The notes below the pieces were generated by a model. The model was given only the letters and a program-made list of their open reading frames with translations, was not told where the DNA came from and made no database searches. A stretch of 64,000 nt of DNA from Haloferax litoreum (GTDB taxonomy: Archaea; Halobacteriota; Halobacteria; Halobacteriales; Haloferacaceae): the NCBI RefSeq assembly GCF_009674605.1, contig NZ_WKJO01000001.1, forward strand, positions 1,612,001 to 1,676,000, written 5' to 3'. Positions within the stretch are counted from its first letter, which is position 1; every line of letters begins with the position of its first letter. The position numbers and the translations under genes were made by a program. Shown here piece after piece: positions 56,492 through 59,855 of the stretch.

Positions 56492-57748
56492 CTATCGACT
56501 GACGATGTCGGCAACCTGTTCGAGTTCGACGAACTCCGTGTCGCCGTCGCGTGTTTCGAGTTCGACTTCGCCAGTCTCTCGGAAGTTGTTTCCGAGGACT
56601 GCCTTCCGGGGGATACCCAGCAAGTCACTCTCGGCGAAGCGTTCGCCGATAGTCTGGTCGGGGTCGTCGAAGAGGAGTGTCTCATCGCGCCCGCACGTAT
56701 CGTGGAGTCGGTCGGCGGCCTGCGCTATCGCTCCATCGTAGTCGAGGGGGACGATTGCGAGGGTGTAGGGTGCGACGGTCCCGGTTTCCGTCACGGGCCA
56801 CCGACACCCGTCGTCGTCTGCGTGTTGTTCGATGAGTGTGTGTACGAGTCTGTCGACACCGATACCGTAGCTTCCCATCTGGACGGGTCGCGTCGACCCA
56901 TCGGCCGTATCAACTGTGAGACCTGCGGGGACGGAGTACCGCGTGCCCAGTTTGAAGACGTGTCCAATCTCGATGCCCTCTCCGGCGGTGAGCCTGCCCC
57001 CACAGACGGGACACGAGTCGCCGGCAGCGAGGTGGCCGTCACCCGACTCGTCAGTCACACCGACGCGACACCCGTCCGTCTCACAGGAGACGAGTGCGGT
57101 GCTCCCCGTCTCGACGAGTGCGACGAACTCCTCGGACGCAGACCCGCCCATCACGCTGTTCTCCGCGTCGACGACGACGAAGTCGATGCCGAGTGCGTCG
57201 AAGATGCGGCAGTAGGCGTCGCGCACGCGAGCGTACCACTCGTCGAGCGACTCCTCGGTGGCGTGGAGGCTGTACGCGTCTTTCATCGTGAACTCTTTTG
57301 TCCGGAGGAGTCCGTTCCGGGGGTGGTCGTCGCGGTGTTTCCGCGCCACCTGATAGAAGAGTCGGGGGACGTCTTCGTATGACCGGACGAACCCCTCGAC
57401 GAGGTGGACGACACCCTCTTCGTGCGAGGGTGCGAGACACATCGCTTGGCCGTCGCGGTTTTCGAACGTGAACATCTCGTCTTCGAAGTTCCCCCAGCGG
57501 CCACTCTGTTTCCAGATGGCTTTGTGCTGGAGACTGGGGAGGCTGACAGCTTGCCCGCCGATGGCGTTCATCTCCGCTTCGATGAGGCCGATGACGTTTC
57601 GACGGACTCGCTGCCCCGAGGGTGTGAACCCGAACAGTCCACTGCCGAACTGTCGGACGAGTCCTGCCCGGACGGCAAGTTGGACGGTGTCGTTCTCCCA
57701 GCCTTCGCTCTCACGACTCGTGAAGAGCGTCACCTCACTTCGACGCAT
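56492..57748 (-). CDS. proS: Short bacterial-type prolyl-tRNA synthetase
   Basis: This is a 418-residue class II synthetase. LAVRAGLVRQFGSGLFGFTP and LPSLQHKAIWKQSGRW correspond to the motif 1 region of bacterial ProRS. RNGLLRTKEFTMKDAYSLH is motif 2, and MGSYGIGVDRLVHTLIEQH is motif 3. The bacterial editing (INS) domain of about 180 residues is absent; its place is taken by about 50 residues with CETDGC and CPVC pairs, probably a zinc knuckle. Archaea normally use the longer archaeal/eukaryal type, so this is likely a second, acquired enzyme or a ProRS-like protein. ATG 57748 is preferred to GTG 57757. Confidence 0.85.
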   Translation of the reverse strand: MRRSEVTLFTSRESEGWENDTVQLAVRAGLVRQFGSGLFGFTPSGQRVRRNVIGLIEAEMNAIGGQAVSLPSLQHKAIWKQSGRWGNFEDEMFTFENRDGQAMCLAPSHEEGVVHLVEGFVRSYEDVPRLFYQVARKHRDDHPRNGLLRTKEFTMKDAYSLHATEESLDEWYARVRDAYCRIFDALGIDFVVVDAENSVMGGSASEEFVALVETGSTALVSCETDGCRVGVTDESGDGHLAAGDSCPVCGGRLTAGEGIEIGHVFKLGTRYSVPAGLTVDTADGSTRPVQMGSYGIGVDRLVHTLIEQHADDDGCRWPVTETGTVAPYTLAIVPLDYDGAIAQAADRLHDTCGRDETLLFDDPDQTIGERFAESDLLGIPRKAVLGNNFRETGEVELETRDGDTEFVELEQVADIVSR

Positions 57749-58069
57749 TGGCGTCACCTCGGGTGTCAGAACGACGGCGTCGCTGGACGGGAAGACGAAT
57801 GCTCGTTAGTAATCGGTCAGAAACAGCGTCGGTACAACTATCGCGGAACCCAGCCGCGAGTCGCACCGGACTCACGGCTTCGAATACTGGTTCGGTCGTC
57901 TGTTGCCATGCAATTGTCACGATTGGGCGTGTGTAAATAAAGATTTCTCAACACGTCCGAGCGAGTGGTCGTCTGGGTGATGCCCAGATACCACGCGTTT
58001 CGAGTTGGGATGCCCCTCTCCACGCCGGCCGGAGATAGATTTATGAGGGTGTACGTAGAAATAGTTACT
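57749..58069. other. Intergenic region upstream of the ProRS-like gene
   Basis: 321 bases with no gene that I can support. The promoter of the minus-strand synthetase should lie at 57770-57800. A plus-strand AGATTTATGAGG element at 58035-58046 is placed to drive the small frame at 58070. Frames of about 60 codons here are Arg/Ser-rich shadows. Confidence 0.45.
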
Positions 58070-58171
58070 ATGATTGTTGTAAGTTCTGAGGAACAGACGC
58101 CTGTCCGCTCGACGCCCGTCCGCCGTACCGCCACCTTCGCCGAGATGTCCGCCGCGATGCGTAATCTCTGA
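58070..58171 (+). CDS. Possible 33-residue protein
   Basis: The frame reads MIVVSSEEQTPVRSTPVRRT followed by ATFAEMSAAMRNL and stop. It has a TATA-like element about 28 bases before the ATG, consistent with leaderless expression. There is no domain. Composition fits neighbouring coding DNA, but the length alone cannot prove a gene. Confidence 0.35.
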   Translation: MIVVSSEEQTPVRSTPVRRTATFAEMSAAMRNL

Positions 58172-58193
58172 GTGTTCTTCGCCGTCTCACAGA

Positions 58194-58343
58194 CTACATC
58201 TCCAGTTCTCTGCTGTTCTCGCTTCGGGAGCCGCGGAATCGTCGTGCTTCGTCGCTTCCAACGCCGGGGTCCGTGACTTCGCCACCGTGACCGACGGCCA
58301 CTGTTCGACGCTCGACTACTGGTTGGGCGACTTCGTGGCACAT
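58194..58343 (-). CDS. Possible 49-residue protein
   Basis: The frame begins MCHEVAQPVVERRTVAVGHG and ends SRSENSRELEM. An ATATATCAATTG stretch about 35 bases upstream could be its promoter, but the same AT-rich DNA precedes the EF-1alpha gene. It converges with the 33-residue frame. No motif supports it beyond position and an uninterrupted frame. Confidence 0.3.
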   Translation of the reverse strand: MCHEVAQPVVERRTVAVGHGGEVTDPGVGSDEARRFRGSRSENSRELEM

Positions 58344-58592
58344 TGTGGTCGTTGACTCAATTCCTATTCTTCAATTGATATATGTTCTCCTACTATCACC
58401 GGCAGGAATTGTCTACTGAAAAACACGACACGGCTCGGCATTCGTCCCACGAATAGTCTACTATTCCAGAGATTCACAGGACCAAAAACGTCGGATTCGC
58501 GGGCATATGGCGCTGAAACACTCTATCTCGGGAAAACGGATATACCCTTGGGTGTCATATTCTACCAAACTGGGCAACAGTGCCCTGATACC
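58344..58592. promoter_or_regulatory. Upstream region of the EF-1alpha gene
   Basis: 249 bases. The DNA is AT-rich at 58360-58420. GATATACCC at 58539-58547 and CATATTCTACC at 58556-58566 are candidate TATA elements, the second about 30 bases before ATG 58593. An in-frame GTG-like extension at 58548 would overlap this promoter and is rejected. Confidence 0.4.
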
Positions 58593-59855
58593 ATGGCAGA
58601 CAAACCACACCAGAACTTAGCCATCATCGGACACGTCGACCACGGGAAGTCCACGCTCGTCGGTCGACTCCTGTTCGAGACAGGCAGCGTACCGGAACAC
58701 ATCATCGAACAGCACCGCGAGGAAGCGGAGTCCAAGGGCAAGTCGGGTTTCGAATTCGCCTACGTCATGGACAACCTCGCCGAAGAGCGTGAACGCGGGG
58801 TCACCATCGACATCGCTCACCAGCGCTTCGACACGGACAAGTACTACTTCACCATCGTGGACACGCCCGGCCACCGCGACTTCGTGAAGAACATGATTAC
58901 CGGCGCGTCGCAGGCCGACCACGCGATTCTCGTCGTGGCCGCCGACGACGGTGTGGCCCCACAGACCCGCGAGCACGTCTTCTTGGCCCGGACGCTCGGT
59001 ATCGAGACACTCATCATCGCCATCAACAAGATGGACGTTGTCGACTACAACGAAGACAGTTACAATCAAGTCAAAGAAGAGGTGCAGCAACTCCTGAAAC
59101 AGGTACGGTTCGACACCGACGACGCACGATTCATCCCCATCTCCGCGTTCGAAGGGGACAACATCTCCGAACACTCGGACAACATGTCGTGGTTCGACGG
59201 GCCGACCGTCCTCGAGTCGCTGAACGACCTCCCAGAACCGTCACCGCCGACGGACGCGCCACTCAGAATTCCGATTCAGGACGTGTACACCATCTCGGGT
59301 ATCGGGACCGTTCCCGTCGGACGCGTCGAGACTGGTGTCCTGAACGTCGGTGACAACGTGAGCTTCCAGCCGTCTGACATCTCCGGCGAGGTCAAGACCA
59401 TCGAGATGCACCACGAGGAAGTCGGGCAGGCCGGCCCGGGTGACAATATCGGGTTCAACGTCCGTGGTGTCGGCAAAGACGACATCCGCCGCGGCGACGT
59501 CTGTGGCCCGGCAGACGACCCGCCGTCCGTCGCGAAGACGTTCAAAGCGCAAATCGTCGTCATGCAGCACCCATCGGTCATCACCGCTGGGTACACGCCA
59601 GTCATCCACGCGCACACGTCACAGGTCGCCTGTACGTTCGAATCGCTCGACCAGAAACTCGACCCCGCGTCGGGTGAAGTCGCCGAGGAGAACCCCGACT
59701 TCATCAAAGCCGGTGACGCCGCTATCGTCACGCTGCGGCCGCAGAAACCACTCAGCATCGAGCCATCGTCAGAAATCGCCGAACTCGGTAGCTTCGCAAT
59801 CCGCGACATGGGACAGACCATCGCGGCCGGTAAAGTACTCGAAGTCAACGAGTGA
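58593..59855 (+). CDS. tef1a: Translation elongation factor EF-1alpha, stand-alone paralogue
   Basis: This 420-residue GTPase delivers aminoacyl-tRNA to the ribosome. G1 is GHVDHGKST at 13-21, the switch region has [20 protein letters not shown]3 is VDTPGHRDF near 90, and G4 is INKMDVVD; domains II and III follow with the standard [20 protein letters not shown]. Threonine in the G3 box replaces the cysteine (DCPGHRDF) usual in archaeal EF-1alpha. No rps10, EF-2, rps7 or rps12 gene adjoins, unlike the main archaeal str cluster, so this is likely a second copy. A T-run follows the stop. Confidence 0.9.

Follow-up and report, generated by a model that had tools for sequence, protein, structure and literature searches.

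In the bacterial leader-peptide attenuators of trp, his and pheST, the gene is preceded by an RNA hairpin and by a short leader ORF containing codons for the cognate amino acid, with several control codons, more than one per leader. E. coli thrS provides the precedent for feedback repression by leader RNA binding. Leaderless transcripts make up 72% of those in Haloferax volcanii, where structured leaders are termed untypical, and uORFs of 23 and 26 aa occur in the 5'-UTR before HVO_A0127 (tryptophan--tRNA ligase) and pheS; the available portion of that account reports no control codon or hairpin for these uORFs (PMC4983044). The term 'attenuation' was sought in PMC12186497, PMC4983044 and PMC7237163, and no mention of it was found there. 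Accessory aminoacyl-tRNA synthetases (aaRSs) that stand beside the housekeeping enzyme have been described as LeuRS2 of Halobacteria, Streptomyces ProRSx and IleRS2, and the available part of the account of these enzymes mentions neither a codon purge nor a leader (PMC9437257). In the literature searched, whose coverage was partial, we found no description of a haloarchaeal prolyl-tRNA synthetase (ProRS) of the kind reported here.

The window analysed is a stretch of 64,000 nucleotides from Haloferax litoreum, the genome of which comprises 3.56 Mb in three contigs. It carries a gene for a bacterial-type ProRS, here called ProRS2, with a short leader ORF upstream (Table 1). Like the bacterial attenuators, this locus places a leader ORF with a cognate codon and an RNA hairpin before the gene; unlike them, it is archaeal, probably has a leaderless start, contains a single control codon and lacks a supported alternative helix, and codons of the same class as the control codon are purged from the coding region. 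The likeness to the Hfx. volcanii uORFs, compared by description only, is that small ORFs lie in the 5'-UTR of haloarchaeal aaRS genes. We lean slightly towards regarding ProRS2 as a functioning second ProRS that is held as an emergency enzyme. The preliminary description, made from the DNA letters, had noticed the enzyme; it mentions neither the leader ORF nor the codon purge.

Table 1. Features of the ProRS2 locus; coordinates are positions in the window
Feature	Coordinates	Strand	Remarks
ProRS2, bacterial-type prolyl-tRNA synthetase	56492..57748	(-)	418 aa; without INS; 13/13 proline codons CCC
Shine-Dalgarno-like GAGGTGA ahead of ProRS2 ATG	57754..57760	(-)	
Leader ORF	57838..57909	(-)	23 aa, MATDDRTSIRSRESGATRGWVPR + TAG
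Invariant GTT-CCG (Val-Pro)	57844..57849	(-)	36/36 distinct leaders; candidate control codon CCG 57846-57844
Conserved RNA hairpin within leader ORF	57854..57877	(-)	9-bp stem, 57877-57869 with 57862-57854; 6-nt loop; covariation; in centroid structure
TATA-like TTTATT	57936..57941	(-)	begins 32 nt ahead of leader ATG
Second EF1A gene, divergent neighbour	58593..59855	(+)	87% identical to main EF1A

That an archaeon carries a bacterial-type ProRS without the INS editing domain, as first described, is borne out by the family profiles, by matches to both the Pfam core and anticodon-binding domains, and by a solved bacterial ProRS (5ucm) that aligns in two pieces, to ProRS2 residues 4-227 and 243-410, which flank the INS of 5ucm. 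The ATG at 57748 gives 418 aa. Translation from a GTG at 57757 instead would lengthen the protein by three residues, including a proline encoded by CCA; this 421-aa form was the query for the comparison with TIGR00409 and PRK09194. TIGR00409 (proS_fam_II) scored 358.4 bits, above its curated cut-off of 306.7, with the match split in two stretches. The full-length equivalog PRK09194 scored 396.6 bits, under its cut-off of 558, again in two stretches with the INS missing, and PRK12325 (alphaproteobacterial mini-INS ProRS) scored 330.9 bits, under its cut-off of 550. The predicted fold, based on an alignment of 32 proteins from the window and related loci, has a mean pLDDT of 88.5 and a pTM of 0.90, and its best solved-structure matches are the E. 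faecalis and R. palustris enzymes, 2j3l being the top match. A loss of catalytic residues in motif 2 or 3 was looked for, and the arginines of these motifs (R139, R300) proved invariant across 38 rows, as did the TXE-loop glutamates (E110, E111). The gene appears to be under constraint, with dN/dS of 0.12-0.18 in five Haloferax species pairs; synonymous divergence among these genes is already high (dS 0.2-0.8).

ProRS2 shares with the INS-containing bacterial P-type enzymes of E. coli and E. faecalis the motifs, the core, the anticodon-binding fold (2j3l) and, with most long forms, two pairs of cysteines. The preliminary description had read these cysteines as a zinc knuckle that replaces the INS. 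The CX4C...CX2C pattern is indeed present, but it is not a replacement, because both Cys pairs flank the INS in 18 of the 22 long bacterial ProRSs examined; those lacking the pairs are from E. coli, Nocardia, a fusobacterium and a Bacteriovoracaceae bacterium. The pairs are kept, between motifs 2 and 3, in all 44 haloarchaeal ProRS2s (43 by pattern, plus L207 with CXXC as the first pair). Since the same pairs stand at both feet of the INS in the long enzymes, the INS was probably cut out between the two halves of an older metal-binding-like motif, and the Cys pairs of ProRS2 may bind metal. The preliminary description had also suggested an enzyme that may tolerate mis-acylation; elsewhere in the genome lies one gene of the YbaK/ProX editing-domain family (PF04073; G000:C3:167745-168107), a possible trans-editing partner.

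The alphaproteobacterial mini-INS ProRS (2i4l, PRK12325) resembles ProRS2 in being short, in lacking a full INS and in its fold (TM-score 0.88-0.89), but its linker is longer. No Cys pairs were found in the linkers of the three alphaproteobacterial and one Ruminiclostridium short ProRSs examined. The last of these, from Ruminiclostridium sufflavum (L142:8001-9236; 32% identity), is a further short form without INS, in Firmicutes. In phylogenetic trees the alphaproteobacterial mini-INS ProRS groups with E. coli (support 96/89, and a weaker 93/17 in a second tree); the AU test gave p 0.179 for common descent of ProRS2 with the alphaproteobacterial short ProRS, and the linkers of the two differ. 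The 44 haloarchaeal ProRS2 sequences form one clade with support of 100/100, within which those of two genomes, G045 and G060, and of locus L137 branch away from the remaining 41. The sequences support descent of ProRS2 from a bacterial ProRS, with loss of the INS.

P-type and E-type ProRSs normally do not cross-charge; the bacterial enzyme relies on R144 of motif 2, which matters more than 1000-fold, and bacterial tRNA-Pro on G72 and A73, according to the available part of PMC12152171. Bacterial and archaeal tRNA-Pro share a conserved A73, and G1-C72 is used by A. pernix (PMC9976931, available part). The H. litoreum genome contains three ordinary tRNA-Pro genes (TGG, CGG and GGG), and haloarchaeal tRNA-Pro shows G1:C72 and A73. 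The position of R144 is occupied by Arg in 25 of 26 bacterial ProRSs. The motif-2 loop of ProRS2, in contrast to that of the bacterial P-type enzymes, is shorter by one residue and reads RDDH[AP]R, with His in place of R144, in 41 of 44 sequences (40 by pattern and L014 by eye); the Arg is kept in the other three. The window enzyme has HPR at this site, and the P-type RPR is absent. The loss of R144 in most ProRS2s fits the G1:C72 and A73 of haloarchaeal tRNA-Pro, and may be the change expected of a bacterial enzyme that was moved onto an archaeal tRNA. A second difference from the bacterial enzymes concerns Thr109, which we take to be a residue of the proline pocket: it is replaced by Ser in 41 of 44 haloarchaeal ProRS2s, Thr staying in those of G045, G060 and L137.

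No partner tRNA for ProRS2 was found. The H. litoreum genome (G000) contains two tRNA-like genes of low score, at C1:1430168-1430255 (L063) and C1:2141703-2141801 (L064), whose acceptor stems are 8 bp and whose variable regions are long; one is matched in 4 and the other in 13 of the 15 genomes of the genus. They were considered as partners and rejected, because two genomes that have ProRS2 (G009 and G010) match neither.

A second proS was sought in the genome, and an archaeal-type gene was found at C1:177990-179420. The same holds for 36 of the 38 ProRS2 carriers tested. The other two, G045 and G060 from group g32, are 99% complete and yielded no archaeal ProRS at E<=1e-50; a search of G045 with ProRS2 returned only ProRS2 and one weaker match of 28% identity, taken to be ThrRS. 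In acceptor stem and A73, their tRNA-Pro(TGG) and tRNA-Pro(GGG), the two genes compared there (the CGG gene was not located), match those of the window genome, and the acceptor stems are of the ordinary haloarchaeal kind. In these genomes a ProRS2-type enzyme apparently suffices for translation, and the loci concerned (G045:C1 and G060:C1; L015, L203, L254) look like a natural replacement of a housekeeping synthetase by a bacterial-type ProRS. Because it is the only ProRS found in two related genomes with ordinary haloarchaeal tRNA-Pro, the ProRS2 family very probably makes Pro-tRNA; by extension from G045 and G060, which falls short of proof, the window enzyme presumably charges tRNA-Pro as well. 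An earlier suggestion that it might charge something other than tRNA is unlikely, given the retained anticodon-binding domain and the two genomes in which no archaeal-type ProRS was found beside ProRS2.

ProRS2 is sparsely distributed. It is present at >=50% identity in 9 of 59 genomes, the window genome included, and in 5 of 15 within the genus, the H. profundi protein being 93% identical to that of the window; across a class-wide draw, 36 of 391 haloarchaeal genomes had it, as did 16 of 86 genera. One genome (G041) has both ProRS2 types (L137 and L014) together with an archaeal ProRS, and its L137 copy adjoins genes that resemble, by eye, a P450 and an oxidoreductase, possibly a biosynthetic neighbourhood. 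Haladaptatus halobius carries a shortened ProRS2 (L140; 234 residues matched) with a weak leader match still ahead of the gene, and a C-terminal ProRS2 fragment on a plasmid (H100 on NZ_CP085342.1). A scan of viral contigs gave no relative, and the 127 plasmid records matched were all below 60% identity, the rows inspected being bacterial ProRS, ThrRS and fragments. A gene for a long bacterial ProRS is present on Clostridioides difficile plasmids of about 97-150 kb (PLSDB H23, H24, H25, H33 and others).

Comparison of 31 sources revealed no neighbour gene common to most ProRS2 loci, while groups of related loci have neighbours in common. An EF1A gene adjoins ProRS2 in all five Haloferax carriers and in L122. 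Linked transfer of the two genes is not supported, since the second EF1A shares 86.9% identity with the main EF1A in the same genome and 81.4% with the EF1A beside the L122 ProRS2; as far as shown, it lies outside the regulatory unit. The patchy spread, the want of a neighbourhood common to most loci compared and the foreign type of the enzyme would all suit a resistance enzyme directed against a natural inhibitor of archaeal/eukaryal-type ProRS, for which the mupirocin-resistant IleRS2 is a precedent (PMC9437257, available part). We consider this a serious possibility that we nevertheless doubt, as the analysis identified neither an inhibitor nor a producer; it would supply the reason for a rescue system rather than another mechanism.

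The leader was first seen as a conserved short ORF when the upstream regions of the five Haloferax ProRS2 genes were aligned. The element lies ahead of ProRS2 in 39 distinct genes, with GTTCCG 71 to 179 nt upstream, and the encoded peptides end in variants of R-G-S-x-x-A-R-G-[W/R]-V-P. A peptide pattern was used to gather the leaders; it sets the reading frame across the motif and leaves start and stop free. An in-frame ATG is present in 34 of 36 distinct leaders, versus 3 and 2 in the other frames, and the two without it (L135 and L110) have an in-frame GTG each; a stop codon follows within nine codons of the CCG in all 36, versus 0 and 3 in the other frames. Across the 36 leaders A+T content peaks at -32 to -27 relative to the leader start, and no such peak precedes ProRS2, which has a Shine-Dalgarno-like motif in 30 of 32 genes checked (four of 36 rows with misplaced starts were excluded). 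The A+T peak and the Shine-Dalgarno-like motif together suggest that the transcript probably begins at or next to the leader ATG, so that the leader would be the first ORF and ProRS2 would lie downstream.

The hairpin directly before GTT-CCG is 97.2% paired. It shows 21 cells with two-sided change, versus 6.3 in shuffled alignments (0/500 shuffles) and 0-2 when the pairing is slid; counted by pairs, three show two-sided change, which is not above shuffles (2.6; 327/500). Folding of the whole leader is no better than that of shuffles (z 0.15), and an alternative helix using the leader CCG, the one second helix tested, is unsupported. A scan of 57600-58700 against Rfam gave three matches up to E 10, all of them under the gathering score and outside the leader ORF. 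None was a T-box, and no Rfam family fits. With a covariance model of the leader, the window leader scored 63.8 bits in 1.264 Mb (it is a row of the model) and nothing else exceeded 18.9 bits. Matches at the expected place were obtained before three genes outside the model, L133, L143 and L140 (63.7, 46.6 and 24.2 bits), and no element was found before L118, L122, L126, L129, L138, L137, L203 or L254 (L254 is the locus in G045).

The invariance of GTT at its silent third base points to a constraint at the RNA level as well. This, together with the covarying hairpin, the invariant GTT-CCG and the thrS precedent, would be expected if the leader RNA were a binding site for ProRS2 or another protein in feedback repression, with the short ORF of minor importance. 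We think this unlikely: the leader frame is kept by its starts and stops, most bases of the hairpin loop vary, and feedback binding leaves unexplained the loss of CCA and CCG (CCR) codons from the ProRS2 gene.

In the five Haloferax ProRS2 genes, 68 of 68 proline codons are CCC or CCU (CCY), versus 35% in flanking genes (p 3e-29); over the 26 main-clade loci the figure is 300/350 versus a background of 37% (p 2e-73), where the sequences are related and the counts behind both p-values hence not independent. Counted over the whole genes, the Haloferax figure is 69/69. The bias is specific to proline, as the four-fold boxes of Ala, Gly, Val, Thr, Leu, Ser and Arg are near background in Haloferax ProRS2 (smallest p 0.011), with small shifts for Val, Ser and Arg across the 26 loci (odds ratios 1.36, 1.62 and 0.81). 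In a survey of 1.264 Mb with 1036 heuristically predicted genes, ProRS2 was the sole gene with zero CCA/CCG among the 677 with at least 10 prolines, the next gene having 73% CCY. By raw p-value its proline bias ranks fifth among 6773 gene-by-amino-acid tests; it stands out by completeness and conservation rather than by that rank. No purge is seen in bacterial proS genes taken together (CCY 448/976 versus a background of 2652/5418) or in the ProRS2 genes of G045, G060 and L137 (24 CCY versus 32 CCR), and eight haloarchaeal archaeal-type proS genes show mild enrichment only (42-67% CCY). Reading of CCY codons requires only tRNA-Pro(GGG). With GGG, TGG and CGG isoacceptors in the genome, the CCY-only ProRS2 coding region should be translatable with tRNA-Pro(GGG) alone.

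A purge of this kind might also shield the gene from its own enzyme, if ProRS2 mischarged or titrated CCR-reading tRNA-Pro in deliberate mistranslation. The missing INS and the Thr109 to Ser change agree with such a role, for which Streptomyces ProRSx offers a precedent (PMC9437257, available part). This is quite improbable, however: the search for a partner tRNA found none and the distribution of the two odd tRNA genes does not follow that of ProRS2, a single gene is purged although all proteins made meanwhile would suffer, and the leader is left unexplained.

The purge goes together with the leader. In leader-bearing genes, a count that excludes L133, L143 and L140, CCR accounts for 21 of 514 proline codons and 29 of 39 genes have none, versus 70 of 127 codons in eight leaderless ProRS2 genes. 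Five rows have the start set a few codons late, which hides no CCR in the four whose upstream sequence was seen. The exceptions are L122, leaderless with 1 CCR of 12, and the leader-bearing L121, L090 and L123, with 5, 5 and 3 CCR. L122 groups with L118, L138, L126 and L129 (98/90), all leaderless, and codon drift may have followed leader loss in this group. The tree contains two changes of leader state, with which the codon state agrees in 1.8 of 2 contrasts on average; the association rests on two independent events, with which a sign test cannot reach 0.05. The small number of independent events is what could be said for an ordinary spare ProRS whose codon bias arose by chance, from base composition or from the codon usage of the donor, the upstream ORF being unrelated. 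Such an account is very improbable indeed, because the bias is proline-specific and recurs across genera, persists despite the synonymous divergence between the Haloferax genes and singles out one gene of 677, and because of the frame and covariation tests.

We give slightly better than even chances to the reading that ProRS2 is a rescue ProRS, induced by ribosome stalling at the leader CCG, whose coding region can be translated with no proline tRNA other than tRNA-Pro(GGG). If the main ProRS were inhibited or proline scarce, Pro-tRNA(CGG/UGG) would run short and ribosomes would stall at the leader CCG. The stall would alter the hairpin and thereby increase transcription or translation of ProRS2, which would be made from CCC/CCU codons, provided that tRNA-Pro(GGG) stayed charged longest, and would then recharge the proline tRNAs. 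The leader and the codon purge cohere if ProRS2 is needed when CCR-reading tRNA-Pro is uncharged, and the idea that isoacceptors are charged selectively is an established one (PMC12476630, available part, citing Elf 2003). The leader and codon evidence would also fit the preliminary suggestion of a duplicate for stress. Several observations count against the rescue reading: the two independent events behind the leader-codon association and its exceptions (L122, L121, L090 and L123), the gathering of leaders by a peptide pattern, the number of covarying pairs, the folding of the whole leader, the RNA-level constraint on GTT, and the want of support for a competing helix of the kind found in classical attenuators. 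In addition, one proline codon per leader is few beside the bacterial attenuators, and the archaeal-type proS might be expected to gain from the same codon trick, yet it is only mildly CCY-rich.

The published uORFs before the TrpRS gene and pheS in Hfx. volcanii suggest that the leader arrangement may be wider among haloarchaeal aaRS genes. A more general proposal, to which we give a little less than an even chance, is that haloarchaea sense tRNA charging through leader peptides: the CCG of a leaderless mini-ORF would read tRNA-Pro(CGG/UGG) and switch on a codon-immune foreign rescue ProRS, and other aaRS genes (TrpRS HVO_A0127, and pheS with its uORF) may be run likewise. If true, archaea would have a control circuit based on a leader peptide, and ProRS2 would be a clear natural example of a gene whose synonymous codons have been purged to allow its translation during the very shortage that it repairs. 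Selective charging of tRNA isoacceptors would then be directly testable in a tractable group, as one leader codon and 13 enzyme codons could be swapped. ProRS2 also documents a bacterial-type ProRS that seems to have been adjusted to archaeal tRNA-Pro and, in two related genomes, has apparently taken the place of the native enzyme.
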